Source of the DNA: an uncultured Oscillospiraceae bacterium
GTDB lineage: Bacteria > Bacillota > Clostridia > Oscillospirales > Oscillospiraceae
Assembly (NCBI GenBank): GCA_934591635.1
Contig: CAKTPI010000001.1
Coordinates: 124,001 to 188,000 of the forward strand
Reading direction: 5' to 3'
Length of the DNA: 64,000 nucleotides
Position numbers and translations under genes: made by a program. Under the pieces are notes generated by a model that saw only the letters and a list, made by a program, of their open reading frames with translations, made no database searches and was not told the DNA's origin. Below, piece after piece: positions 3,515 to 44,103 of the stretch. Position 1 is the stretch's first letter. Every line of letters begins with the position of its first letter.

Positions 3515-3543
3515 CGAAAATAAACGCAAAGCATCCTTGCGCA

Positions 3544-3660
3544 TCTTCTTCCATCCAGACTATACTGTCGGTATCGGAGTTTCACCGATTCGGCGCCGAA
3601 GCGTTCGCGGACTGTAACCGCCGGTGGGGAATTTCACCCCGCCCTGAAGATTGCTATTCA
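3544..3660 (-). ncRNA. FMN riboswitch (RFN element)
   Basis: Read on the minus strand, all conserved RFN blocks are present in order: GGGGTGAAATTCCCCACCGG, CAGTCCGCGA, GGTGAAACTCCGATACCGAC and AGTCTGGATGGAAGAAG. The position between a promoter and a terminator upstream of ribU is the standard arrangement for FMN-repressed riboflavin uptake. Confidence 0.97.
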
Positions 3661-29823: not shown

Positions 29824-30098
29824 AAAAAAACCCTCCGCCCGACAAAATCGGGACGAAAGGCAAATCCTTCCGCGGTACCACCCGCAATTCGCCGCTCTTT
29901 TTGCGGCGCAGCTTTCAGGCGCATCCACGCCCATGATGGATAACGGCATCACCCGTCCGGCCCTACTGATTTCTTTTCAGGCGGCAGCTCCTGGGAGAAA
30001 GCCCGGCATTGCACGCAAGCGGATCCCACCATCCCGCTCTCTCTGTTGCCGCAAACCAATGACAGGCAGCCCAATCGCAGCGTTTTCTTATACATCAC
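29824..30098 (-). ncRNA. T-box leader (tRNA-Phe sensing) of pheST
   Basis: Read on the minus strand, the conserved T-box GCGGGTGGTACCGCGG is at 29891-29868 and is followed by a terminator (29860-29824): arms CCTTTCG-CCCGA and TCGGG-CGGAGGG, then seven Ts. A stem I with an AGAGAG motif lies near 30020-30050. A TTC triplet at 29999-29997 is a candidate Phe specifier codon. Uncharged tRNA-Phe should favour antitermination and raise pheST expression. Confidence 0.92.
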
Positions 30099-30099
30099 T

Positions 30100-30128
30100 A
30101 TACTAGCACATTCCGTGAAAAGATGCAA
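30100..30128 (-). promoter_or_regulatory. Promoter of the T-box-pheST transcript
   Basis: On the minus strand TTGCAT (30128-30123), a 17-bp spacer and TAGTAT (30105-30100). Between this and the next promoter (30130-30326) I see AT-rich sequence with no gene. Confidence 0.6.
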
Positions 30129-30326
30129 GCCTTTTTTATGGAAAGCGATGTTGTCCTCATAAATCGTTTCATACAGATATAGACAATGTGAGGAGAAAAA
30201 CAGAATAAGCAGAGTTACGAAAACCTTTTCGCTAATAAAAGGAAAAATCATAGCTGAAAAACTATTTTTGTAGGAAGTGCAAAAAATCAGCGTTCAATTT
30301 TTGTTAACTTTTGCGTCAAAACCTGT

Positions 30327-30355
30327 TTGATTTTCCTGGAAGGACACGATATAAT
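30327..30355 (+). promoter_or_regulatory. Promoter of the pilus operon
   Basis: TTGATT (30327-30332), a 17-bp spacer and perfect TATAAT (30350-30355), placing the start of transcription about 30 bases before the c-di-GMP aptamer. Confidence 0.8.
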
Positions 30356-30393
30356 ACAGACACAAGAGAAATGCTTCAATTACATAGGAATGG

Positions 30394-30496
30394 TGCAATC
30401 GGCACGGTACCCGGCCGGGAAGCTCCTTAGCAAACCCTTCGCGAGGAGGGGACGCAAAACTGTAGGGGGTCACTGACCCAGCCAGCTGCCGATGCA
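30394..30496 (+). ncRNA. c-di-GMP-I (GEMM-I) riboswitch
   Basis: The aptamer core GCAAA-[CCCTTC]-GCGA-[GGAGGG]-GACGCAAA (30430-30458) matches the class I c-di-GMP core: a GNRA-capped stem flanked by the GCAAA/GACGCAAA internal loop. A second hairpin GGGTCActGACCC (30468-30480) is followed by the conserved AGCCAGCTGCCG. The closing helix can form between TGCCGATGCA (30487-30496) and the upstream TGCAATCGGCA (30394-30404). The segment between the closing helix and the core is longer than usual. It controls the pilus operon downstream. Confidence 0.88.
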
Positions 30497-30524
30497 CGCC
30501 GCTGCGTGCGTGGGCTCTTTTTTT
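30488..30524 (+). terminator. Riboswitch-controlled intrinsic terminator
   Basis: GCC-GAT-GCACGC, loop CGCT, GCGTGC-GTG-GGC, then TC and seven Ts. The 5' arm reuses bases 30488-30496 of the aptamer's closing helix, so ligand-bound aptamer and terminator cannot both form. This predicts that c-di-GMP allows read-through. Confidence 0.85.
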
Positions 30525-30563
30525 ACTCTTTTTGCGATTCAGGTCTTGATGGGAGAGGGGAAC

Positions 30564-31004
30564 ATGACGGATAAAGAGGTTCGAAAACTGAATCGCACGG
30601 ATCTGCTGAAGCTCCTGATCGAGCAGACCGAGGAAAATGAGCGCCTTTCCGCCCGCAACCGGGAGCTGGAAGAGAAGCTTGCCCAGCGTACCGCGATTCT
30701 GGAAAAATCCGGCTCTATTGCGGAGGCGGCGCTGGGGCTGAGCGGAGTGTTTACCCAGGCCCAGGACGCGGCGGATCGTTATCTTGCCAGCATTCGGAAG
30801 CTGCAGGCGGACACAGAGGCAAAGTGTGCCCAGCAAGAGGAGCAGACCAAAAGAAGATGCCAGCAGATGGAGGAACGCACCCGCGCCCTGTGTGCTAAGC
30901 TCCTGGAGCAGACCAGGCAGCCGGCGTCTCCTCCGCCGGAGCCGCTGCCGCCCCAGCCGGAGCAGCCCGAGGCCAGGGCCTCCCGCTTCTGGAAGAGAAG
31001 GTAG
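30564..31004 (+). CDS. Coiled-coil protein, first gene of the pilus operon
   Basis: A 146-aa soluble protein, mostly predicted coiled coil. It has leucine/charged heptads at about residues 10-50 (LLKLLIEQTEENERL onward) and 70-120 (QAQDAADRYLASI, then Gln/Glu/Arg-rich repeats). A Pro-rich linker (PPPEPLPPQPEQP) and a basic tail RFWKRR end it. No signal peptide or membrane segment. I do not recognise a family. Being first behind the riboswitch suggests an intracellular scaffold or assembly role. GAGAGGGG precedes the ATG at 30564; upstream frame lies in the riboswitch terminator. Confidence 0.8.
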   Translation: MTDKEVRKLNRTDLLKLLIEQTEENERLSARNRELEEKLAQRTAILEKSGSIAEAALGLSGVFTQAQDAADRYLASIRKLQADTEAKCAQQEEQTKRRCQQMEERTRALCAKLLEQTRQPASPPPEPLPPQPEQPEARASRFWKRR

Positions 31005-31010
31005 GCGGCC

Positions 31011-31589
31011 ATGAAGAAACATCTGGAAAATCCCGGCGCGGAAAGCCTGCGCAAGGAGCTGAACCGGGTGCAGTATAACCGGCGTTACCGCGGTGTCATC
31101 CGCAGCACGGTCTATGTGCTGCTTACCGTGGCGGCGGTGGCGGTGTTGATTGCGACATTGCTGCTGCCGGTGCTTCGCATTTATGGCACCTCCATGACCC
31201 CCTGTTTGCAGGAGGGAGATATTGTTGTCTCCGTCAAGGGTATGGACTTTGAACGGGGCGATGTGATCAGCTTCTATTATAATAACAAGATCCTTGTCAA
31301 GCGTGTGATCGCCTTTGAAGGAGAGTGGGTCAACATTGATGAGGACGGCAACCTTTTTGTGAACGGCACGCTGCTGGAGGAACCCTATATTTCCGAGAAG
31401 GCACTGGGCGAATGTGATATTCAGCTGCCCTATCAGGTGCCGGATGGGCGCGTTTTTGTAGTGGGCGACCACCGCGCAACCTCGGTGGACAGCCGCAGCA
31501 CCACGGTCGGCTGTGTGTTCGAGGAGCAGGTCGTGGGTAAAATTGTCTACCGCGTTTGGCCGTTGGAAGGTTTTGGGCCAGTGAAATAA
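31011..31589 (+). CDS. Type I signal peptidase
   Basis: A 192-aa membrane-bound signal peptidase. After one transmembrane segment (about 32-52) come the catalytic Ser61 in YGTSMTP and Lys97 in ILVKRVIA, plus the family box VVGDHRATSVDSR. Its place between the coiled-coil gene and the pilins suggests a dedicated peptidase for pilin export; such peptidases occur in Gram-positive pilus loci. Confidence 0.93.
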   Translation: MKKHLENPGAESLRKELNRVQYNRRYRGVIRSTVYVLLTVAAVAVLIATLLLPVLRIYGTSMTPCLQEGDIVVSVKGMDFERGDVISFYYNNKILVKRVIAFEGEWVNIDEDGNLFVNGTLLEEPYISEKALGECDIQLPYQVPDGRVFVVGDHRATSVDSRSTTVGCVFEEQVVGKIVYRVWPLEGFGPVK

Positions 31590-31620
31590 GGAAAGAATCA
31601 TTGTGAAAGGGAGGATTGCA

Positions 31621-34600
31621 ATGCGTAATCTTCAGCGGGCAAACGAGTTTGCGGCGCAAAAGAGAAAGCGCAGTGTTTGGCGCAATGTAGTCACGTGCAT
31701 TGCCGCAGTGGTGGTGTTCTGCACTACCTATGCCCTCATTTTGCCTGCAATTACCATGGAGAAGGAGAATTTTACCTGCGGCCTGCAGGCCCACACCCAC
31801 ACAAGCGAGTGCTATCAGCTGGTGTGCGGTAAACAGGAAAACTTCTCTCATACCCATACAAAGCCGGATTGCTATGATGCGGCGGGCAAGCTCACCTGTA
31901 CATACAAAGAGCAGACCCTGCACCATCATACGCCGGACTGCTATTCGAAGCCCCAGCCCGCCTGCGGCCAGATGGAGCATCTCGCCCACGCCCATGAGGA
32001 TGGCTGCTATACCGAGGGCACGCTGACCTGCACCCAGGCAGAGACCCCGGGCCACACCCACACTGCGGAATGCTATCCCGCCGATTTCCAGGCAGCACTG
32101 ATTTGCGGCCAGCAGGACATCCCGGAGCATCGCCATACATCGGATTGCTACCGCCGTACCTGTGAGCTGGAGGAACACACCCATACCGAGTCCTGCATCT
32201 CCTCCCACCAGGCATTTTTGAATAGTATCCAGGAAGCCACCCAGGAGGCTACCCAGCCTGAGGACGTAACCCAGCCCGAGGACGTTACCCTTCCCGAGGA
32301 AGCTACCCAGCCCCAGGAAGTAACCGAACCCCAGGAAGTTACCGAACCCCAGGAAGTTACCGAACCCCAAGAAGTTACCGAACCCCAGGAACCCACCCAG
32401 GAAGAGGAGCCCACCCTCCCAGGGGCAGCCCAGACGCCGGTTCTTCTGGCCCCCGCCGCTGTCGCAGAGAACGCCGAGAACACCGGGCCTGTGAAGCTGG
32501 TGGACGTGGCAACATCGTTGACGGTCAGCTCTGACAAAGCAGAATACGTCTCAGGCGCAACCATAAACGGCCAGTGGGTAGACGGCGCTTATAAGATGAC
32601 CTTCAATCTGGCATTTGACGTGAAGACGGACGGAGACCCAGGTGACCGCCATATCGTTGACAGAAATGGCAAATCCGTTTCCGGTACTGTCTTTACATAT
32701 AACCTGGGCATAGCAGAGCATGGGGATCATGTTGATTATGATGTCAAGTACAAATTCAACCCGGCGCTGGGAAATAGTACCTATCATTTTGTAGACAATC
32801 CGGACGGAACAATTACCGTGGTTATTGACCTGGACGATGCCTACGTTAAGGCCAGCAATGTGGGAGACATCAAAGGTTATATCAGCCTTGCCGCCATTGT
32901 TGGCAAAGAGGACGGCAAAGAAGACGGCTCCGTTGAGCATGATACCGAGGGCAATATTAAAATCAAAGTGGATGCCGACAAAGTGACCTATCCCGATAAC
33001 GAAACCAACAAGGGCAAGGTGGAGGTCAGCAAAACCGGCAGCTTCACCTTTGAGGGGGACAAACTGCTCTATACCGTGGTGGTATCCTCCGGCGGAAAAG
33101 GCACCCCTGGCCCGGTGACAATCCTGGATACCTTCAATTTCGACGGAGCTGCCCTGGACAGCATGGGCATTACCGGCCCCAAGGAAGTGAAGCTGGACGG
33201 CGCAGACTATACGGGCTTTACAGCCATCCCTAATGGCACCGGTAAAACGGACATTTCCATGACGCTGCCGAAGCTGGACGGCTCGGAAACGCATACCATC
33301 ACCTATGTTTTTGAAATGGCCAATCGCCCGGAAACAGATACCCCGGTGAAGAACAAGGTGCACGTGGAATCTACACCCGAAGGGGGCGGCAAGCCGGTCA
33401 AGGCAGAGAAGGAGATTACGGTAACCGTCCCGGATAAAGACACAAAGCCGCAAATCAGCCTGTCCAAAAGTAGACCGTGGATTCAAGATGATACAATGGT
33501 GATTCCCTGGACAATCAAGTTCAACGATACGAGGATGGATATCACCGGAAAAGTGCTGGAAGACTCTTATACAGTGAGCAAGTCCAATGGCGAAACAGAA
33601 ACCTTCACGTGGAGTTTTAATGATGCCATAAGCAATACGGACAAACCCATGACCGTCAAGGTGAACGGAGTGGAAATTCCCAGCACTGAGTTTGCTCAAC
33701 ATTTCACAGTCCAAGAGAATGGCTCCCTGAAATTCACAGGCACCGAGGAAGCGCCGAACACCAATGCCTACGAAATCACCTACTATATGCCCACCAAGGA
33801 CTTCAATAGCCAGTGGGGCGTAACTTCCGTAAAGAACAAGGCCAAGGTAGGCGAGTTGGAGGCAACAGCCGAAGATTGGAAGTCAAACCAAAACTCCGTT
33901 AAGAAATCCTCCCAGGGAGTGGAGGCGGCAGAGAATGGCCAAGTCCGCATGAAGTGGAAGACGGATATCAACGTAACCAATGTGGGCTTTAAGACGGGCG
34001 ACGTTATCTACGATAATACCAATCCCGGTAACAGCACCGAAAACCTCCATTATTTTGACCGGGATTCCATCCGGATTTCCTACAATGGCACTACCTGGAC
34101 AAAGGATGTTGACTACCGCCTGGAATTCTACGACCGCAAGGACGGAGCGGCAACAGACGGAAACGCCACCTATATGCAGGTTGTCCTGCTGAAAGACATT
34201 CCCGCCAAGGGCGGATACCAGCAGGATTTGCTGACCATGGAATACACCACCTTTGCCAATTCCCACGAAGCAAAGACCTATAAAAACACCGCCACCTTCT
34301 ATAATACGGAGAGCGGTGCCCAGCAGGAAGTTGTGCCCGATTCCATCGTAAAAGCCGACGGAAACGGAATCACAGGGACAACCAAGGTGGAGAATTTTAA
34401 CGGTGAGCTGACCTGGAAGATTACCGCAAAGATTGGCGACATTACCAAGACCAAGACCGTCACCGTGACGGATGCCCTTCCCTCGAACGTGGAGGTCAGA
34501 AAGCTGAGCGTGGTTTCCAAGCTCGCCAACGGTGCCGACCAGAACGCAGACCTTACCATTGCCCAGGATGGCACAATCTTCGGCAACAATGCGGATTTCA

Positions 34601-37455
34601 CATTCTCCGGTACCTGCCAGAAGAATGAACAGGGTCAGAATGTGGTCACCCTGATTGCCACCCGGAAAGATGGGAAGGACATCGAGGCCAATTCCACCAT
34701 CACGCTGAATCTGGATTGCTGCCTGGCCCAGGATTTTGTGGCGGGAAATGACAAGGCAACCCTTGCCAACACCGCAGAGGGAACAACAGACCAGGGAGCC
34801 ATCGGAAATGCCACCCATACCCAGGAATGGACGAAGAAGAAGGAAAACGTATTCGAGAATGCCCTGAGTAAAAAACGTATAACCACCCCGGACGGCCACA
34901 ACTATCTGGAATATCAGGTTCAGATTAACCCCGAGGGGAAGGACCTCCAGCCCGACAGTGCCGAGGTGTATCTGGTAGATGACTTCTCCTACAATCCCAA
35001 AAAGGGCGATTATGACCTGGTGTTCGAGCTGGTGCGGGATTCTGTCAAGCTCTACAAGGCGACGCCCCAGGCAGACGGCACCCTGGTCAAAGAGGGAGAG
35101 GCGCTTACCGCAGGCTGGCGAATGGTTCTCAGCGAAAGCGACCCCACCGGGGACTTCCCCGGTGCAAAAATCACCAAGACCATGCGCCTGGCGGTTCCGG
35201 ACGGAACGCCCCTGATTCTGGAATACAGATACGAATTGACCGGCTATAAAGAGGGCTTGAAGGATATCTGGCTGGAAGCAACCAACAGGGCGTATTTCCT
35301 CACAGATCCTAGCCAAGGCTCAGGCGACAATACCATAAGCGAGAGCTGGTCAATCAGCGGCACCTCCGGCGGCCTCCATACCAACCGCCATATCCAAATC
35401 GTCAAGGTGGACGAAAGCAACTCCAAGGTTGTCATCCCCGGCACAAAGTTTACTCTACAGGAGTGGAAAGACGGCAGTACCTGGAGCGACGTAACAACTG
35501 TTACGCAGCCCCTGACAACAGGCGCTGACGGCTCCCTGACAGTGGATGGCTTCGGCGATAATCTGCAATACAATGTCCTCTATCGCCTGATTGAGACAGA
35601 ACCGGCCCCCGGCTACCTTCTGGACACAGCCAACCCGCCCACGGTGGAATTCTATTATCACAATGATAGTCAGGATGTACCGGAGGGATACCCGGCTTGG
35701 GATGATGTGCCGAAGGACAGTGCAGTGGACTTGTCCCAGAACAGCGCAACCCAGTACATTACCAACAAGGCAGAGTCCGCCCAGTTCTCCGTTAAGAAGC
35801 TCTGGAAGTACGAAGGCGGCGCACCGGTGCCCAATCCCCCGGAGGCAACCTTCCAGCTCATGCGGGTTGCCACCGAGAAAAAGCAGGACGTTGTGGTGAA
35901 TGACCCATTGGCCGGTAAGGTTACCATCACTGTTGCCGCTGCCCAGTATAACTATGGTGATAGCGGTTCTGGTACTCCGTATGAGGTGCCCAAAGGAACG
36001 GTTCTGACTGTGAGAGTAAGGCATGCCGGTTGGTCGGGCGAAAATCCGAGCGTTTACTTGTCTGTGCCGAATAACAATGACGTTAAGATTAACCCCACAA
36101 TTAGAAGACCAGCAGACGACCCGAATGCTATTGAGTTCGACTATGAGGCAAAATATAGCGTTGTACTGTGGGTCAGAACAGGATATTGGGACGGTTATCC
36201 CACCTTCACCTGCACCTACCCCGGCCAATCCACCGGGGGAACTACCGGCGGCTCCACCGGCGGCACAACGCCTACGGAATTTGCACCGGAACCAGTTGGC
36301 ACCATCACCCTGAACGCCGCCAACAACTGGACATGGAACAGCAAGGATTACCGGACAGAGGATGGGGAGAAACTCCTCGTCCATGGAACAAAGGATGGCA
36401 AGGAGGTCTGGTACAGCTACTACGTCCGTGAGATTCCCAATGCTTCCTATCCCTACGCAGTTTCCTATTCCAATAAGTCTGGCAATGATTACACCGCCAT
36501 CACCTCCGGTACCATTACGGTTACCAACACCCTGCCGCCTCCACCGGCGGATGTCAGTGTCACGGTGAACAAAACCTGGGCGGGCCTGGAAAACTGGAAA
36601 AATCTGGAAACGGTGAATTGTGAACTCTTCCAGAAAACCTGGGCTTCCGAGGCGGAATTCCAGGCGGCCCAAGAAAACGCCCCCCTGGACTATAATGTGA
36701 CCTATGGCATGACGGATGCAGACATTGCCGCCCTTGCCGGTGGCACTTTGAAGCGGATGGAAGCATTCACCCTGAATTCCGGTGATAACTGGACATGGAC
36801 TAAGTCCAATCTCCCTGCAGGGTCGGCGGATGGGAAATACTACACCTACTTCGTAGTAGAGCAGCCCGGTGACTATACCGTCACCTATAGCCCCCAGGTG
36901 CATGATGGCACCATCACCGTCACCAATACCATCACCCAGCGGCCTACGGATATTGGGGTAGATAAGAAGTGGTTCAGCTTCTGGGGGGATGATATGACTG
37001 CTTCCCGCACCGGCGGTGTTTCCTTTGACCTGTACCGGGTGGCCACGCCGGAGGGCGGAGCGGCACAGGCGGCGGAAAAAATCGGCACCTTCTCGGTCAG
37101 CCAGACCGGCAACTGGACATGGAGCAGCAAAAACGAGCCGCTTCTGCCCGATGGCCTGCTGAAAGAGGAGTACAAGGCCCTTGCTGAGGGCGAACCGAAG
37201 GTGAAGGTGACCTACACCTATTACATTCAGGAGCTTGTGGACGAGAATGCCACAGAAAAATACACGGTTGATTACGAAAACAACGATGGCATCTCCCAGG
37301 GCACCATTACGATGAAAAATACCCTGGAATCCCCTAAGTTCGAGCTTCCCCAAACCGGCGGCCCCGGCACCCGGACTTACGCACTGGCAGGCGTTGTGCT
37401 CTGCCTGCTGGCAGTCACGGGCCTGGCCTGCAAACGCAGAAGGGGGGCCAAGTAA
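31621..37455 (+). CDS. Giant LPQTG-anchored adhesin/tip pilin
   Basis: A 1944-aa surface protein. A signal-anchor helix (about 21-45, ending CTTYALILPAITM, a sequence common at the start of clostridial adhesins) is followed by a Cys/His-rich region (about 55-198) of HTHTxxCY-type repeats. A Thr/Glu/Pro hexapeptide repeat (about 213-260) comes next, then many beta-rich isopeptide-type domains, a SpaA-like domain (about 1257-1350) and three Cna_B domains (about 1390-1600, 1640-1770, 1775-1905). It ends in LPQTG (1909-1913), a hydrophobic helix and KRRRGAK. GGGAGG supports the ATG at 31621. Size and position suggest the pilus tip adhesin; the ligand is unknown. Confidence 0.92.
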   Translation: MRNLQRANEFAAQKRKRSVWRNVVTCIAAVVVFCTTYALILPAITMEKENFTCGLQAHTHTSECYQLVCGKQENFSHTHTKPDCYDAAGKLTCTYKEQTLHHHTPDCYSKPQPACGQMEHLAHAHEDGCYTEGTLTCTQAETPGHTHTAECYPADFQAALICGQQDIPEHRHTSDCYRRTCELEEHTHTESCISSHQAFLNSIQEATQEATQPEDVTQPEDVTLPEEATQPQEVTEPQEVTEPQEVTEPQEVTEPQEPTQEEEPTLPGAAQTPVLLAPAAVAENAENTGPVKLVDVATSLTVSSDKAEYVSGATINGQWVDGAYKMTFNLAFDVKTDGDPGDRHIVDRNGKSVSGTVFTYNLGIAEHGDHVDYDVKYKFNPALGNSTYHFVDNPDGTITVVIDLDDAYVKASNVGDIKGYISLAAIVGKEDGKEDGSVEHDTEGNIKIKVDADKVTYPDNETNKGKVEVSKTGSFTFEGDKLLYTVVVSSGGKGTPGPVTILDTFNFDGAALDSMGITGPKEVKLDGADYTGFTAIPNGTGKTDISMTLPKLDGSETHTITYVFEMANRPETDTPVKNKVHVESTPEGGGKPVKAEKEITVTVPDKDTKPQISLSKSRPWIQDDTMVIPWTIKFNDTRMDITGKVLEDSYTVSKSNGETETFTWSFNDAISNTDKPMTVKVNGVEIPSTEFAQHFTVQENGSLKFTGTEEAPNTNAYEITYYMPTKDFNSQWGVTSVKNKAKVGELEATAEDWKSNQNSVKKSSQGVEAAENGQVRMKWKTDINVTNVGFKTGDVIYDNTNPGNSTENLHYFDRDSIRISYNGTTWTKDVDYRLEFYDRKDGAATDGNATYMQVVLLKDIPAKGGYQQDLLTMEYTTFANSHEAKTYKNTATFYNTESGAQQEVVPDSIVKADGNGITGTTKVENFNGELTWKITAKIGDITKTKTVTVTDALPSNVEVRKLSVVSKLANGADQNADLTIAQDGTIFGNNADFTFSGTCQKNEQGQNVVTLIATRKDGKDIEANSTITLNLDCCLAQDFVAGNDKATLANTAEGTTDQGAIGNATHTQEWTKKKENVFENALSKKRITTPDGHNYLEYQVQINPEGKDLQPDSAEVYLVDDFSYNPKKGDYDLVFELVRDSVKLYKATPQADGTLVKEGEALTAGWRMVLSESDPTGDFPGAKITKTMRLAVPDGTPLILEYRYELTGYKEGLKDIWLEATNRAYFLTDPSQGSGDNTISESWSISGTSGGLHTNRHIQIVKVDESNSKVVIPGTKFTLQEWKDGSTWSDVTTVTQPLTTGADGSLTVDGFGDNLQYNVLYRLIETEPAPGYLLDTANPPTVEFYYHNDSQDVPEGYPAWDDVPKDSAVDLSQNSATQYITNKAESAQFSVKKLWKYEGGAPVPNPPEATFQLMRVATEKKQDVVVNDPLAGKVTITVAAAQYNYGDSGSGTPYEVPKGTVLTVRVRHAGWSGENPSVYLSVPNNNDVKINPTIRRPADDPNAIEFDYEAKYSVVLWVRTGYWDGYPTFTCTYPGQSTGGTTGGSTGGTTPTEFAPEPVGTITLNAANNWTWNSKDYRTEDGEKLLVHGTKDGKEVWYSYYVREIPNASYPYAVSYSNKSGNDYTAITSGTITVTNTLPPPPADVSVTVNKTWAGLENWKNLETVNCELFQKTWASEAEFQAAQENAPLDYNVTYGMTDADIAALAGGTLKRMEAFTLNSGDNWTWTKSNLPAGSADGKYYTYFVVEQPGDYTVTYSPQVHDGTITVTNTITQRPTDIGVDKKWFSFWGDDMTASRTGGVSFDLYRVATPEGGAAQAAEKIGTFSVSQTGNWTWSSKNEPLLPDGLLKEEYKALAEGEPKVKVTYTYYIQELVDENATEKYTVDYENNDGISQGTITMKNTLESPKFELPQTGGPGTRTYALAGVVLCLLAVTGLACKRRRGAK
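32257..32400 (+). repeat. 18-bp tandem repeats encoding PQEVTE-like hexapeptides
   Basis: Eight degenerate 18-bp units inside the adhesin gene. The four at 32311-32382 are nearly identical (CCCCAGGAAGTTACCGAA). They encode P-E-D-V-T-Q/L, P-E-E-A-T-Q and then P-Q-E-V-T-E repeats. All are in frame, so copy number could change without a frameshift. Confidence 0.92.
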
Positions 37456-37523
37456 CCCCGAATGTCCCTTTTCCCCGGCATTAAAAGAGCATCAAAATCG
37501 AGAAACGAAAGGAAATGACACAA

Positions 37524-39056
37524 ATGAAAGCAACCAAAAAACTGCTGGCAATCCTGCTGGCGGCCGTCATGCTCATGGCAGTCCTCCCCGGCGCATTTGC
37601 AGATGACCTGACCTACAGCCTGACCATTACAAACACAACAGCAGGCCATACGTATTACCTATATCAGATTTTTACCGGTACGCTTACCAATGAAGGCGGC
37701 AAGAAGATTCTGACGGATGTGAAATACGGTAATGGCTGGAAGGATCAAACTGCTGGCACGCTTGTGCCTCAGAATGTGCTGAATGAATTCCAAACAGCTA
37801 GCGGAGAAACCAACATTGAGAAGTATTTGCCCAGTATGCCCACTGTTGGTAATGGCGCCTTTGCTACTGTTCCCTCTGCAGACGGCGCAACAGTGTTTAC
37901 GGGTCTTCCTGCCGGTTATTACCTGGTGATTGAGGCAGACGCGGAAAACCTTCCCGATGGAGAAACCATGACAAAACATATCCTTCAGGTGGTTGGCGAT
38001 ACCAGTGTGCCCCTGAAGGCCAGCACAGTTTCCTCTGAGAAAAAGGTTAAGGATATCAACGATTCTGAGGGGACTTATTCCGCATGGCAGGATTCTGCCG
38101 ACTATGACATTGGAGATGACGTTCCCTTCCAGCTGAGTGCAACTGTTTCTGACCGGCTGAACGACTATAAGGGTCCCTACGCCATGACGTTCCATGACCA
38201 CCAGAGCGAAGGCCTGACATTTAATCAGGATTCCGTGGAAGTTTTTGTGAAAACCAGTTCCGGTTCCGCAGAAACCAAGATTGACAGTACAAATTATACA
38301 GTCAGAAGCGGCTCGGAGAGTTCCAATTCCTGCACTTTTGAGGTTCACTTTGATAATCTGAAGGATATATCTGCGGTGACGCCTGGCAGTACAATTATTG
38401 TGCGGTATACCTCTAGGCTGAATGCGAGGGCAAAGACGGGTTATCCTGGTAACCCCAATGAAATGCACATCACATTCTCCAATAATCCCAATACTGATAA
38501 GCCCCATGAGGAGGGCAAGACTCCTGATGATAAGGTCACGGTGTTCACTTTCAAGCTAGTGGTGAATAAAGTTCAGCCCGTTGACGGTACGCAGGAAACC
38601 AAGCCCTTGAAGGGTGCTGCATTTAAGCTGAGCAAGAAAAACGGCGGCACTTATGTGGAAGTGAAAACGCTGGGTACTGATAAAGATAATCCCATTGATG
38701 AGTTCGAGTTTACTGGTTTGGATGACGGCGAGTACATGTTGGAAGAGGTTATCACACCTGATGGCTTCAATACCATTGCCCCAATTGAGTTCACCATTAC
38801 AGCCGATCATGAGGTACAATCGAATGACCCGCGTTTGACTGCGCTCACGGGCGGCAAGCTGGCTGATGGCAATGTTGACATTGCAGGTGATCTGAGCACC
38901 GGCACCATCACTACCGGTGTTGTGAACATCAAGGGCAAGACCCTCCCCTCCACCGGCGGTATGGGCACCACCGTCTTCTATATCATCGGCTCCATTCTGG
39001 TTGTCTGCGCAGGCGTGCTGCTGATTTCCAAGAAGCGGATGAACGGCGCAAAGTAA
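37524..39056 (+). CDS. LPSTG-anchored backbone (major) pilin
   Basis: A 510-aa SpaA/SpaH-type fimbrial subunit polymerised by the sortase downstream. A signal peptide (about 1-24, cleavage near AFA) is followed by Ig-like domains. A Lys-rich segment SSEKKVKD (near 170) is a candidate pilin-motif region. A Cna_B/prealbumin domain carries the E-box pattern YMLEEVITPDGFN. The sorting signal is LPSTG (474-478), then a hydrophobic helix and KKRMNGAK. I chose the ATG at 37524; the one at 37515 overlaps the AAAGGAA binding site. Confidence 0.93.
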   Translation: MKATKKLLAILLAAVMLMAVLPGAFADDLTYSLTITNTTAGHTYYLYQIFTGTLTNEGGKKILTDVKYGNGWKDQTAGTLVPQNVLNEFQTASGETNIEKYLPSMPTVGNGAFATVPSADGATVFTGLPAGYYLVIEADAENLPDGETMTKHILQVVGDTSVPLKASTVSSEKKVKDINDSEGTYSAWQDSADYDIGDDVPFQLSATVSDRLNDYKGPYAMTFHDHQSEGLTFNQDSVEVFVKTSSGSAETKIDSTNYTVRSGSESSNSCTFEVHFDNLKDISAVTPGSTIIVRYTSRLNARAKTGYPGNPNEMHITFSNNPNTDKPHEEGKTPDDKVTVFTFKLVVNKVQPVDGTQETKPLKGAAFKLSKKNGGTYVEVKTLGTDKDNPIDEFEFTGLDDGEYMLEEVITPDGFNTIAPIEFTITADHEVQSNDPRLTALTGGKLADGNVDIAGDLSTGTITTGVVNIKGKTLPSTGGMGTTVFYIIGSILVVCAGVLLISKKRMNGAK

Positions 39057-39094
39057 TTTCGCTGCCGTCAGCAAATTTTTCATGTGTCATTTTT

Positions 39095-39122
39095 CCCCGC
39101 CGCTCCTGCGGGAGCGGCGGGG
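39095..39122 (+). other. Strong hairpin between backbone pilin and sortase genes
   Basis: A perfect 12-bp GC-rich stem CCCCGCCGCTCC/GGAGCGGCGGGG with a TGCG loop lies 38 bases after the pilin stop. No U-run follows it, so it is not a standard terminator on either strand. It could protect the pilin mRNA 3' end and cause more pilin than sortase to be made. Confidence 0.75.
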
Positions 39123-39151
39123 GGAGGACACGTCAGTAAGGAGAGCCCCAA

Positions 39152-39985
39152 ATGAATTGGCTGCGTAAAAATTTATCCACTCTTTTGCTCCTCGCAGCCC
39201 TGCTTGTGGGACTTTGCTTACTGGTGTATCCAACCTTCAGCGATTGGTGGAATTCCCTCCATCAGTCCCGGGCCATTGCCACCTACACCGAGAATGTGGC
39301 GCAAATCGATAACAGCCATTATGATAAGATCCTGGAGGATGCCCACGCCTATAACGAGGCACTGGCCGCTCTGCCCAGCCGGGAATGGAACCTGACGGAA
39401 GCGCAGCTGGAGCAGTACACCGCGACAATGGACGTTACCGGCACCGGCATCATGTGCTACATTGAGATTCCCAAAATCAAATGCAATCTGCCCATCTACC
39501 ACGGGGTGGAGGATACCGTCCTCCAAATTGCCATTGGCCATATCCCCGGTTCCTCTCTGCCCATCGGCGGCGAGAGTTCCCATGCTGTGCTGTCCGGCCA
39601 CCGTGGCCTGCCCTCGGCAAGGCTCTTTACCGATTTGGATAAACTGGTGGTGGGGGATGTGTTCCTGCTCCATGTGCTGGATGAAACGCTGACCTATGAG
39701 GTCGATCAAATCCTGATCGTGGAGCCCTATGACCTGTCTTCCTTGGAAATCATTCCCGGCGAGGACTTGGTTACGCTGGTCACCTGCACGCCCTATGGCA
39801 TCAATACCCACCGGCTGCTGGTGCGGGGCCACCGCATTGAAACCGCTGCCGAGGCCCATACTGTCCGCGTCAGCGCGGATGCGGTGCAGATCGATCCAAC
39901 TCTGGTGGCACCGGTGGTGGCGGCCCCTATGCTGCTGATTCTGTTTATTCTCCTTCTGATTCCTAAGAGAAGACCCAAATCTTGA
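39152..39985 (+). CDS. Class C (pilin-polymerising) sortase
   Basis: A 277-aa membrane transpeptidase. It has an N-terminal helix (about 9-28), catalytic His150 (SGHRGLPSA), Cys212 and Arg221 in VTCTPYGINTHRLLVRGHR, and a C-terminal transmembrane helix, the two-helix plan of class C. It should join backbone pilins via Lys isopeptide bonds after cutting LPSTG. No clear DPW/DPF lid motif is seen. Confidence 0.94.
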   Translation: MNWLRKNLSTLLLLAALLVGLCLLVYPTFSDWWNSLHQSRAIATYTENVAQIDNSHYDKILEDAHAYNEALAALPSREWNLTEAQLEQYTATMDVTGTGIMCYIEIPKIKCNLPIYHGVEDTVLQIAIGHIPGSSLPIGGESSHAVLSGHRGLPSARLFTDLDKLVVGDVFLLHVLDETLTYEVDQILIVEPYDLSSLEIIPGEDLVTLVTCTPYGINTHRLLVRGHRIETAAEAHTVRVSADAVQIDPTLVAPVVAAPMLLILFILLLIPKRRPKS

Positions 39986-40002
39986 AAAAGGGAGTGTGCC
40001 CA

Positions 40003-40842
40003 TTGAAAAAGAAGCTCCTGTCCCGCCTGCTGGCCGCGGTGCTTTCAGCTGCCGCGCTGATATGTCTGGCTGGGATGGCTTTTGCCGCCGGTGAAACCGG
40101 CACCCTGAGCATTTCCTATCCGGTGGAGGGAACATTTTATCACATCTATCGGGTGGGCAGCCTGAAAAACGGCGGCATCGTAATGGATGACGATTTTGCC
40201 GGGGTGGACACCTCGGATATGGCCGCAGCTGCTGGGAAAATAGCGGAGATGATTGCAAAAACCGGCATCCGCCAGGCCCTTGCCAGCGCTGCTGTTACCG
40301 ATGGCAATGCCGTCTTCCGGGACTTGCCCATGGCAGTATATCTGCTCACCGGTGACCCGGGGCAGCTGGACGGGGTCAATTACACCCCTACGCCGTTCCT
40401 GGTTTCCATCCCCCAGACCGATGAAGAAGGCCGGTTTGTGTGGGACGTCCAGGTGGTGGGCAAAAAGGAAATGGATATGGAGATTTCCGTGGTCAAGCAT
40501 TGGGTGGGGGACACTGTCACGACCCGCCCCGCCAGCATTACGGTTCACTTGGTGCTGGACGGCGAGGATTACGGCGAGCCGGTGAAGCTGAACTACGCAA
40601 ACCGGTGGAGCTACACTTGGGAAAATCTCCCCCCCAAGAATTGGTCCGTCCGGGAGGAACCCAACCGCCGCTATACCACCACTGTGGTAAAGAACGGCAA
40701 TACCTTCATCATCACCAACACCTGGAAGCGGCTGCCCCAAACCGGCCAACTCTGGTGGCCGGTCTCTGTGCTGACAATCAGCGGCCTGGGGCTACTGGGC
40801 CTGGGCATGCTGCGCCGGAGAAAGCAGGACGAGGATGCATAA
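40003..40842 (+). CDS. LPQTG-anchored minor/basal pilin
   Basis: A 279-aa secreted protein with a signal peptide (about 1-27, AFA), an N-terminal FctA/SpaA-like domain (about 30-150), and a Cna_B domain (about 155-243, beginning MEISVVKHWVGD). The sorting signal is LPQTG (244-248), then a hydrophobic helix and RRRKQDEDA. The TTG at 40003 is chosen because GGGAG lies 8 bases upstream. Small size and position suggest the pilus base or minor subunit. Confidence 0.9.
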   Translation: MKKKLLSRLLAAVLSAAALICLAGMAFAAGETGTLSISYPVEGTFYHIYRVGSLKNGGIVMDDDFAGVDTSDMAAAAGKIAEMIAKTGIRQALASAAVTDGNAVFRDLPMAVYLLTGDPGQLDGVNYTPTPFLVSIPQTDEEGRFVWDVQVVGKKEMDMEISVVKHWVGDTVTTRPASITVHLVLDGEDYGEPVKLNYANRWSYTWENLPPKNWSVREEPNRRYTTTVVKNGNTFIITNTWKRLPQTGQLWWPVSVLTISGLGLLGLGMLRRRKQDEDA

Positions 40843-41506
40843 AAAAGGATCGATTTTGATCGCAATGGGACTGCTGCTGCTGGCAGCAGCCCTTTTGCTT
40901 ACCGCCTATAATATCTGGGACGGCAAGCGGGCCGATGCGGCTGCCCAATCCGCCGTGCAGGAGCTGCGCACCCTGATTCCCGGGGTAATCCTACCGGAAA
41001 CGGAATTACCTGCTGAAACAGAATCCACAGTGGAAACAGGGGAGACTGCACCCGCGGAGATGGAAGAAGCGGAAGAACCCACCGCCCCGGAAACGCTGGG
41101 CCATCGGGATATGCCCACGGTGGAGCTGAACGGCTACCAATATATCGGCATGCTGGAGGTGCCCTCCCTGGAGCTGACGCTGCCGGTGATGGAGGAGTGG
41201 GATTATGACCGGCTGAATATCTCCCCGTGCCGGTTTTCCGGCAATGTCTATGATGACGATATGGTCATCTGCGGCCACAACTACCCCCATCACTTTCAGC
41301 CGCTGAAATACGTTCCCATCGGCACCCAGATCAAGTTCACCGATGCAGATGGAAATGATTTTTACTATGCCGTTACCTCGATCGAAACCATCGGCCCTAA
41401 TGATGTGCAGGCAATGACCACCGGCGACTGGGATCTGACCCTTTTCACCTGCAATACCAGCGGCCAGACCCGCTGCACCATCCGCTGCGCCCGCCTGGGG
41501 GAATAA
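40835..41506 (+). CDS. Second sortase of the pilus operon
   Basis: A 223-aa sortase with one N-terminal transmembrane helix (about 7-26), a Glu/Thr/Pro-rich linker (about 48-88) and the catalytic core. His148 (VICGHNYPHHF), Cys206 (LTLFTCNTSGQ) and Arg211 or Arg215 are the expected active-site residues. No C-terminal helix, unlike the class C enzyme upstream. The class is unclear. It overlaps the minor pilin by 8 bases and may attach the finished pilus to the wall. Confidence 0.88.
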   Translation: MHKKGSILIAMGLLLLAAALLLTAYNIWDGKRADAAAQSAVQELRTLIPGVILPETELPAETESTVETGETAPAEMEEAEEPTAPETLGHRDMPTVELNGYQYIGMLEVPSLELTLPVMEEWDYDRLNISPCRFSGNVYDDDMVICGHNYPHHFQPLKYVPIGTQIKFTDADGNDFYYAVTSIETIGPNDVQAMTTGDWDLTLFTCNTSGQTRCTIRCARLGE

Positions 41507-41555: not shown

Positions 41556-41594
41556 AGGCCCAAAGGATTTGGAAGCCTCAAAATAAAACGTTTG

Positions 41595-41632
41595 GCTGGG
41601 GGCGGATCTTTTCGCCCCCGGTTGTTTGTTTT
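41595..41632 (+). terminator. Hairpin with T-rich tail before the exonuclease gene
   Basis: GGGGGCG/CGCCCCC with an 8-base loop followed by GGTTGTTTGTTTTG. It probably ends the pilus transcript. If the promoter at 41526 is used it lies in that leader, where it would act as an attenuator. Confidence 0.65.
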
Positions 41633-42657: not shown

Positions 42658-42738
42658 AAAGAGGAGACTGCGCAACAAAAAACAACTCACGGCACGATTC
42701 CGGCGCCTTTGCCGGAAAAGCAGAAAGGATGGTTCCGA

Positions 42739-44103
42739 ATGAAACCGAAAATGAAAGTATCGCTTGCTGCTGTGCTGTGCACCTGTATGCTGCTTGCCCC
42801 CCAGCGTGCCCGCGCCGTGGAAATTGACCCGGCGGTTCAGGCTGAGTTTGACCGATTGATTTCCATCGGTGCGGGGGATATTCTCGATGCCTACCTGAGC
42901 ACCCTCCCCGAGGAGGTACGGGATGCATTGATTGCGGCTGAGGAAGCGAAATACGCTGCACCTACCACCCCCGGAGAGGAGGAAACGCCGGATACAGGCA
43001 GCTGCGGCATTGACCTCAATTGGGAACTTCAGGAAGACGGTACTCTTACCGTCACCGGCACCGGCGAGATGTTTGACTTCCGGGAGAGTCGCCCCGCCCC
43101 CTGGTATGGCAGCCGGGAGAAGATTACGGCTGTGGTACTGGATGAGAATGTGACGGCAATTGGCAGCCGTGCGTTTTCCGGCTGTACCAATCTGAAAACA
43201 CTGACGTTCCCACAGGCGCTTGCCTCCATTGGGGATTCCGCCTTCGAAAATTGTGCTGCCCTGACCCAGGTGCAGCTTCCCGGCAGTGTGGAGCGTATTG
43301 GATGGTCAGCCTTTGCTGGGTGTGAGGGCCTGAACTGGATTCAGATTCCCGGTACAGTGAAAACCCTGGGCGGGTACGCCTTTGCTGGCTGCACCCAACT
43401 GGCTACTGTTTCTGTGCCGGAGGGTGTGACTGCCATCGAGATGGGGACTTTCCAGAACTGTGCCGCCCTGGTGGATGTCCAACTGCCGGAAAGACTGACC
43501 GAGATCGGGCCGGAAGCCTTTTCCGGCTGCACGCAGCTTCGGCTGCTTACCCTCTCGGAATCCACGACCCGCATTGGAACCCGCGCGTTTTATGGCTGCA
43601 CGGGCCTGAAATCCGCTGACCTGTCCATTCATTTGGAGGAGATTGGAGCGCAGGCCTTCTCCGGCTGTGAAAAGCTTGCCTCACTGACCCTGCCCGGCAG
43701 CTTGAAAGAAATTGGTGACGGTGCGTTCCAGAATTGCGCGGCCCTGACCAACGTGGTGCTCCCGGCGGGGTTGACAGAAATCGGCAGCTATCTGTTCCGG
43801 GGCTGCACGGAGCTGCAGGCGGTTACCGTCCCCGAGACGGTGGAACGCATTGGACGCTATGCGTTCAGCTATTGCGGCAAGCTTGGCAGCGTTATTCTGC
43901 CTGAGAAAATTACCGAAGTCGGCACTGAGGCCTTCTCCTATACTGGTCTGTGGAGCATCACCTTCCTTGGCAACGCCCCCGCTATTGCGGCCGATGCTTT
44001 CCGCGGTGTTCAGAGCCAGGCATTTTATGCCGCCTCTGCCCAGGGCTGGAATCGAAAGTCAGCCGTGTCCTACGGTGGAACCCTGACGTGGGAAGCAATC
44101 TAA
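42739..44103 (+). CDS. Secreted BspA-type leucine-rich repeat protein
   Basis: A 454-aa exported protein. A signal peptide (about 1-24, ending ARA) precedes a short N-terminal region and about a dozen LRR_5/BspA-like repeats (IGSRAFSGCTNLKTLTFP type) from about residue 135 to the end. No sorting signal or membrane anchor is seen, so it is secreted or bound non-covalently. Such proteins often bind host or microbial partners. AAAGGA supports the ATG at 42739. Confidence 0.9.
   Translation: MKPKMKVSLAAVLCTCMLLAPQRARAVEIDPAVQAEFDRLISIGAGDILDAYLSTLPEEVRDALIAAEEAKYAAPTTPGEEETPDTGSCGIDLNWELQEDGTLTVTGTGEMFDFRESRPAPWYGSREKITAVVLDENVTAIGSRAFSGCTNLKTLTFPQALASIGDSAFENCAALTQVQLPGSVERIGWSAFAGCEGLNWIQIPGTVKTLGGYAFAGCTQLATVSVPEGVTAIEMGTFQNCAALVDVQLPERLTEIGPEAFSGCTQLRLLTLSESTTRIGTRAFYGCTGLKSADLSIHLEEIGAQAFSGCEKLASLTLPGSLKEIGDGAFQNCAALTNVVLPAGLTEIGSYLFRGCTELQAVTVPETVERIGRYAFSYCGKLGSVILPEKITEVGTEAFSYTGLWSITFLGNAPAIAADAFRGVQSQAFYAASAQGWNRKSAVSYGGTLTWEAI

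Follow-up and report, generated by a model that had tools for sequence, protein, structure and literature searches.

Does a bacterial second messenger control the assembly of a sortase-dependent pilus through an RNA leader in gut Clostridia? The question is raised by a 64,000-nucleotide stretch from an uncultured Oscillospiraceae bacterium (contig CAKTPI010000001.1, positions 124,001 to 188,000 of the forward strand; hereafter the window), in which an original prediction, made from the letters alone, placed a class I cyclic di-GMP (c-di-GMP) aptamer and an overlapping terminator before a set of pilus genes. We report that this leader carries a GEMM-I riboswitch which probably acts as a transcriptional ON switch of a seven-gene sortase-assembled pilus operon, with c-di-GMP as its most likely ligand. 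The coordinates of the features are collected in Table 1.

When the 4227 families of Rfam were searched against the whole window, GEMM-I (RF01051) matched with an E-value of 3.3e-5 and above its gathering cut-off, in line with the covariance search that had been proposed as a check, and the core, GCAAACCCTTCGCGAGGAGGGGACGCAAA, lies at 30430-30458, where it had been placed. The features that mark members of RF01051 are present, i.e., a paired element P2 closed by a GNRA loop, GACGCAAA in the junction J2/3 and the ligand-pairing C in J1/3, and with our own model R2, built from 27 sequences with that of the window among them, the aptamer scores 54.7 bits. The specificity base, G in RF01051, is A in the window (30429); we take this base to be equivalent to Vc2 G20, i.e. 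the one contacting the second guanine, and A30456 presumably corresponds to Vc2 A47. Of 90 distinct aptamers, 60 have G here, 28 have A and two have C, and thus this base does not define the family; nor is the UAA receptor in P3 required for a curated RF01051 score. The match to class I stands, while the wording "near-exact" does not, given the short P3, the atypical J1/2 and the A at 30429. The degraded J1/2 was also considered as the mark of a new class and rejected, as other family members have pyrimidines at the same places.

The terminator was said to reuse the closing strand of the aptamer, and this is what we see: it starts on J1/3 and the first base of P1. Its hairpin (30488-30515) reads GCC-G-AUGCACGC-CGCU-GCGUGCGU-G-GGC with two 8-bp arms and is followed by the U tract TCTTTTTTT; the pattern scan reports this single hairpin twice, in overlapping versions (mean of 0.5 in shuffles). 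The middle shared base, C30489, is the ligand-pairing C. Without the basal GCC/GGC the hairpin weakens from -19.6 to -11.0 kcal/mol in the window, and from -15.7 to -7.1 and from -12.4 to -3.8 kcal/mol in the two closest related loci, L001 and L002, respectively, and in all three the terminator starts exactly at J1/3. Since 30488-30490 is common to aptamer and terminator, the two are predicted to exclude each other, an arrangement that marks ON riboswitches.

We envisage that the RNA begins near 30362 and that P2 and P3 of the aptamer would fold first. With the ligand bound, most likely c-di-GMP, C30489 would be held and G30488-C30490 barred from forming the base of the terminator, such that RNA polymerase would read into gene 1 and on through the signal peptidase, pilin and sortase genes. 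Without ligand the 28-nt hairpin would form and transcription would end at the U tract; a high signal would thus give piliated cells. The ON sign had been predicted before, and our analysis supports it in that the layout is kept in L001 and L002 and matches that of pilM in Geobacter metallireducens, where the terminator takes up the ligand-pairing C and the two states are mutually exclusive (PMC9262584). The pilM leader is likewise a GEMM-I transcriptional ON switch heading a pilus operon; it differs in that the pili are conductive and Gram-negative, P1 lies next to the pocket and the ligand is 3',3'-cyclic GMP-AMP (cGAMP) (PMC9262584). The opposite sign, with ligand promoting termination, draws on the functional class I switches of Clostridioides difficile, which in the excerpted text of one report are uniformly OFF (PMC6200980), a point that counts against an ON switch here. 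Nevertheless, we regard an OFF switch as very improbable, considering the mutual exclusion through 30488-30490 and that no separate antiterminator was seen in the leader folds.

Conservation of the leader was assessed among 80 loci obtained by a signal-peptidase alignment scan, in eight of which less than 1.2 kb precedes the signal peptidase and a leader could be missed. The closest, L001 (genome G001) and L002 (genome G002), are 79% and 81% identical to the window in the signal peptidase and carry the leader and, in unchanged order, a homolog of each of the seven genes. TATAAT is found at the equivalent place in both, with TTGACT recognised by eye, and the L001 aptamer scores 51.9 bits with RF01051. 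Core and terminator are identical to the window at 75/86 (L001) and 69/86 (L002) positions, better than 500 of 500 shuffles, compared to 33/76 and 45/81 of the four-fold codon sites in the signal peptidase gene and 59/106 and 66/111 of those in the class C sortase gene. Neither the RNA 5' of the core nor the spacer that follows the terminator aligns better than shuffled sequence in L001 or L002 (for the spacer, 132/500 shuffles were as good for L001 and 485/500 for L002); a spacer identity of 32/39 columns was discarded, since it came from a heavily gapped alignment of 40 versus 104 bases. In the upper stem of the terminator two pairs are kept by changes on both sides, while one pair is broken in L002, and the letters of J2/3 and J1/3 (UGCCGA) are invariant in the three leaders. 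This pattern is what selection on pocket and terminator would leave, and judged from these alignments the element is real and under selection.

The leader is followed by seven same-strand open reading frames (ORFs; 30564-41506), and the gene content given in the original prediction was recovered in full, i.e., seven pilus genes including two sortases, three proteins with C-terminal LPXTG motifs (LPQTG, LPSTG and LPQTG) and a signal peptidase; one ORF remains unnamed. A class C sortase together with an LPXTG major pilin that has an isopeptide domain identifies a sortase-pilus operon; NF033902 scored 87.6, below its cut-off of 95. The unnamed gene 1 matched no Pfam or NCBIfam family, and its homologs lie near the pilus signal peptidase in all six loci compared (L001, L002, L003, L007, L008 and L023). 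The 1950-residue LPQTG protein is a possible tip adhesin and the 286-residue protein is a probable minor pilin. For the second sortase, no NCBIfam sortase class reached its cut-off.

Table 1. Positions in the window of the leader elements and of the pilus operon (aa, amino acids)
Feature	Position	Strand	Evidence or remark
Sigma-70-type promoter, TTGATT-17-TATAAT	30327..30355	+	promoter pattern scan; 5' of aptamer
Candidate long P1/antiterminator, 5' strand	30393..30404	+	11 pairs with 30487-30497, one bulged A
GEMM-I (c-di-GMP-I) aptamer	30419..30493	+	RF01051, 43.5 bits (cut-off 35)
Ligand-choice base, A	30429	+	RF01051 alignment; Rfam position 11, base before P2
P2 hairpin, GCGA tetraloop	30435..30450	+	covariance alignment, folds
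J2/3 stretch GACGCAAAA, including intercalating A (30456)	30451..30459	+	
GCC common to aptamer (J1/3, first P1 base) and terminator 5' base	30488..30490	+	
Intrinsic terminator with U tract	30488..30524	+	pattern scan, folds; covaries in L001 and L002
Gene 1, 146 aa	30564..31004	+	first gene after leader
Signal peptidase I	31011..31589	+	PF10502, 106 bits; TIGR02227, 117 bits
LPQTG protein, 1950 aa, GTG start	31603..37455	+	Cna_B, 24.1 bits
Major pilin, 513 aa, LPSTG	37515..39056	+	GramPos_pilinBB, SpaA, Gram_pos_anchor; TIGR04226, 68.6 bits (cut-off 30)
Class C sortase (TLVTC)	39152..39985	+	NF033745, 272.5 bits (cut-off 160)
Cna_B protein, 286 aa, LPQTG, TTG start	39982..40842	+	Cna_B, 55.9 bits
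Second sortase (TLFTC)	40835..41506	+	PF04203, 55.1 bits
Terminator-like site after operon, 14 bp	41593..41624	+	

Several observations weigh against a functional switch of this kind. P3 is short, with a 5-bp upper part closed by a triloop, and lacks the UAA internal loop that forms the tetraloop receptor; the usual adenines are missing from the atypical J1/2, and the RF01051 score is modest. In the available portion of a study of the Bc2 RNA, a class I switch of Bacillus thuringiensis, switching was lost when a conserved base that binds the ligand was changed (A11T; PMC4933901), and our guess is that A11 belongs to J1/2. When the interval 30000-30700 was searched alone, the c-di-GMP-I-GGC variant (RF03167) was top by E-value, in a list from which RF01051 was omitted because it overlaps that match; we rejected this variant, since its 39.6 bits are below the cut-off of 59 and J2/3 reads GCAAA in the window and not the defining GCGAA. 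The genome of L002 gave no match to RF01051, and the AAA beside the pocket reads AGC there. Moreover, the specificity base varies among the three orthologs (A in the window, G in L001 and C in L002), and the evidence from GGDEF domains discussed below comes from relatives.

P1 is a further weak point. In the best fold of an RNA ending before the 3' arm of the terminator the 11-pair P1 is present; in the full-length RNA it costs 6.6 kcal/mol relative to the terminator, and in the window it can form only through a J1/2 of 28 nt. Five pairs are possible in L002 and it is absent from L001, while shuffled leaders pair equally well (515/2000 gave a duplex as good). For these two reasons we treat it as optional, and its ordinary duplex energy led us to reject it as proof of an antiterminator; fully formed it would, in addition, cover C30489. 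Nor is the fold of the whole leader unusually stable (z = -1.87; 7/200 shuffles were equally good).

These points could also mean that the aptamer has decayed and that the terminator has become a fixed attenuator in a leader that has lost its response to cyclic dinucleotides, as the drifting specificity base, the atypical J1/2, the short P3, the absence of P1 in L001 and the missing RF01051 match in G002 would suggest. We consider this unlikely: the pocket letters in J2/3 and J1/3 do not vary, the terminator hairpin covaries, aptamer and terminator are kept far above the level of four-fold sites, and the class I pocket of C. difficile Cd1 still binds without P1 (PMC9262584). Cd1, which precedes flgB, resembles the present leader in that its pocket consists of P2 and P3 with no detectable P1 and tolerates changes at the place of G20; it differs in being an OFF switch on flagella (PMC9262584).

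That the ON switch responds to c-di-GMP is likely, a view that draws on the relatives and not on the leader itself. G001 has 14 GGDEF matches, and the position that is Ser in the cGAMP-making (Hypr) enzymes, as stated in the excerpt of one study (PMC6456294), could be read in nine of them (five were not read) and is Asp in eight and Asn in one. Because none of these nine has the Ser of cGAMP synthases, in a survey of GGDEF proteins and not of CD-NTases, c-di-GMP is favoured. Of 30 GGDEF loci in the genus of G001, 16 were readable and show 15 Asp and one Asn, with one of them being a G001 stretch already counted. The naming of c-di-GMP in the original prediction is thus supported by the GGDEF proteins of relatives and weakened by A30429, which is the letter of cGAMP-type switches. 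It is conceivable, if rather doubtful, that the same ON switch has cGAMP as its natural ligand (GEMM-Ib type), or accepts both dinucleotides: A30429 agrees with the GEMM-Ib specificity base, 28 of the 90 distinct aptamers share it, and in the cGAMP riboswitch structure, as far as the accessible part of its description goes, the base before P2 is A14 (PMC6274999). Against this stand, apart from the GGDEF readings, the G and C at this base in the orthologs and the absence of a large effect when the equivalent G of Cd1 was replaced by A or C (PMC9262584). In view of the orthologs and the Cd1 mutants we did not accept cGAMP specificity from A30429 alone; furthermore, A is also found in the canonical-looking aptamers L197, L205, L210 and L211.

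A broader, speculative interpretation, to which we give low credence, is that the aptamer of the window represents a compact GEMM-I subtype, with a non-GAAA GNRA loop, a short P3 lacking the UAA receptor, a loose J1/2, a terminator starting on the ligand-pairing C and a specificity base that drifts among close orthologs. Such an RNA would respond, through P2, P3 and J1/3 alone, to any cyclic dinucleotide that the cell contains and turn surface-fibre operons on in gut Clostridia, and the ligand in the window could then be cGAMP.

With respect to novelty, we know of no regulator of a sortase pilus in this little-studied group of gut Clostridia (relatives are named Faecousia). Two further published systems come close. 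The Bc2 RNA before cap/cbpA is also class I, is ON by antitermination and serves an LPXTG protein with Cna_B repeats, and differs in that excerpts of the two reports describe it for one adhesin and not for a pilus operon that includes sortase genes (PMC4933901, PMC7423583). Cdi-2-1, Cdi-2-3 and Cdi-2-4 of the gut clostridium C. difficile are turned ON by c-di-GMP and act on sortase substrates and type IV pili, while their aptamers are of class II with a distinct fold, as given in the excerpted texts (PMC6200980, PMC6366702). Among the open-licence papers listed in our literature searches, none concerns a class I (GEMM-I) switch at the head of a pilus operon with a class C sortase. The suggestion that such control is less familiar thus holds for this combination, which seems to be new and joins known parts to an unusual target, and has to be tempered in view of Bc2 and the class II precedents. 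If this holds, RNA alone would couple c-di-GMP directly to the making of sortase pili in gut Clostridia, and the orthologs with A, G and C provide a small natural series on the weight of the specificity base.

How widespread is the arrangement? Of the genomes searched, 11 of 136 in the relative's genus and 110 of 400 in its family contain RF01051 (107 of the latter above the cut-off), in runs that used filters losing weak matches. G001 gave a single RF01051 site, which is the pilus leader. Among the 90 distinct GEMM-I aptamers, 20 (including the window, L001 and L002) have a terminator starting between -5 and +1 of J1/3, a share that is biased upward because part of the set was fetched with a model containing the terminator. 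An apparent link between a non-GAAA loop and an overlapping terminator (11/13 versus 9/75 with GAAA, two others excluded) is not claimed, since both features are built into our own model R1, with which L162-L190 were fetched; in the loci obtained by RF01051 alone the overlapping cases have GAAA, except for the leader of L001 itself (there L083). The core pattern had no copy in viral contigs.

Searching the window and the 80 pilus-type loci, with a model that the window, L001 and L002 had helped to build, identified GEMM-I in these three and in L023, with L008 being marginal. L023, from a metagenome-assembled genome of Blautia sp., has a canonical GEMM-I (53.6 bits) 98 bases before a sortase ORF, followed in order by the genes for an LPQTG protein and another sortase, a homolog of gene 1 and the signal peptidase gene. 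As in the window, GEMM-I comes first, and the operon that it heads has homologs of the two sortases, of gene 1 and of the signal peptidase; the differences are a GAAA loop, a long P3, G at the specificity base, a separate weak terminator and rearranged genes, and the 464-residue LPQTG protein did not match the major pilin of the window. That a GEMM-I of different build precedes a related pilus operon here points to a possible repeated origin of the link. The marginal site in L008 (8234-8321) may be a degenerate GEMM-I and precedes gene 1 of a pilus operon, with 18.7 bits (cut-off 35); its score equals that of L131 and the two are probably one locus. A match in L145 was judged false by eye, being the terminator of the upstream gene.

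GEMM-I in this group often serves surface proteins. Of 40 other GEMM-I regions, 10 were read ORF by ORF; L221, L222, L230 and L241 have a downstream protein that bears an [LI]P.TG motif at its C-terminus, and the motif scan of these ten revealed sortase-like ORFs with TLSTC in L228 and L230. Our own sortase profile found ORFs in two of the 40 regions and missed those of L228 and L230, and hence we give no rate. L087 encodes a GBS104-like tip-pilin domain. The sortase of L257 was rejected, since by eye it adjoins type IV pilus-like genes. L228 (genome G058) has two GEMM-I sites, each before a protein ending in PKTG, and the cluster continues with a GGDEF protein, the sortase-like ORF and, by eye, type IV pilus-like genes. 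In L162, L164 and L168 GEMM-I aptamers with overlapping terminators precede proteins that have a hydrophobic stretch at the N-terminus and contain a WF motif; these had no match in Pfam and, by eye, we take them to resemble TasA-like fibre proteins. In L163, L164, L202 and L211 the GEMM-I aptamers stand in tandem, in arrays of two or three.

Other elements lie near the pilus operon or elsewhere in the window. A T-box leader match on the minus strand (29846-30087; 82.4 bits, below the cut-off of 93, E-value 3.4e-18) precedes pheS-pheT, divergent from the pilus operon; the listed pheS ORF extends into this match, and the true start of pheS is probably further in. A BspA-type leucine-rich repeat protein is encoded downstream of the pilus operon (42709-44103), and an FMN riboswitch was detected on the minus strand at 3539-3655 (111.2 bits).

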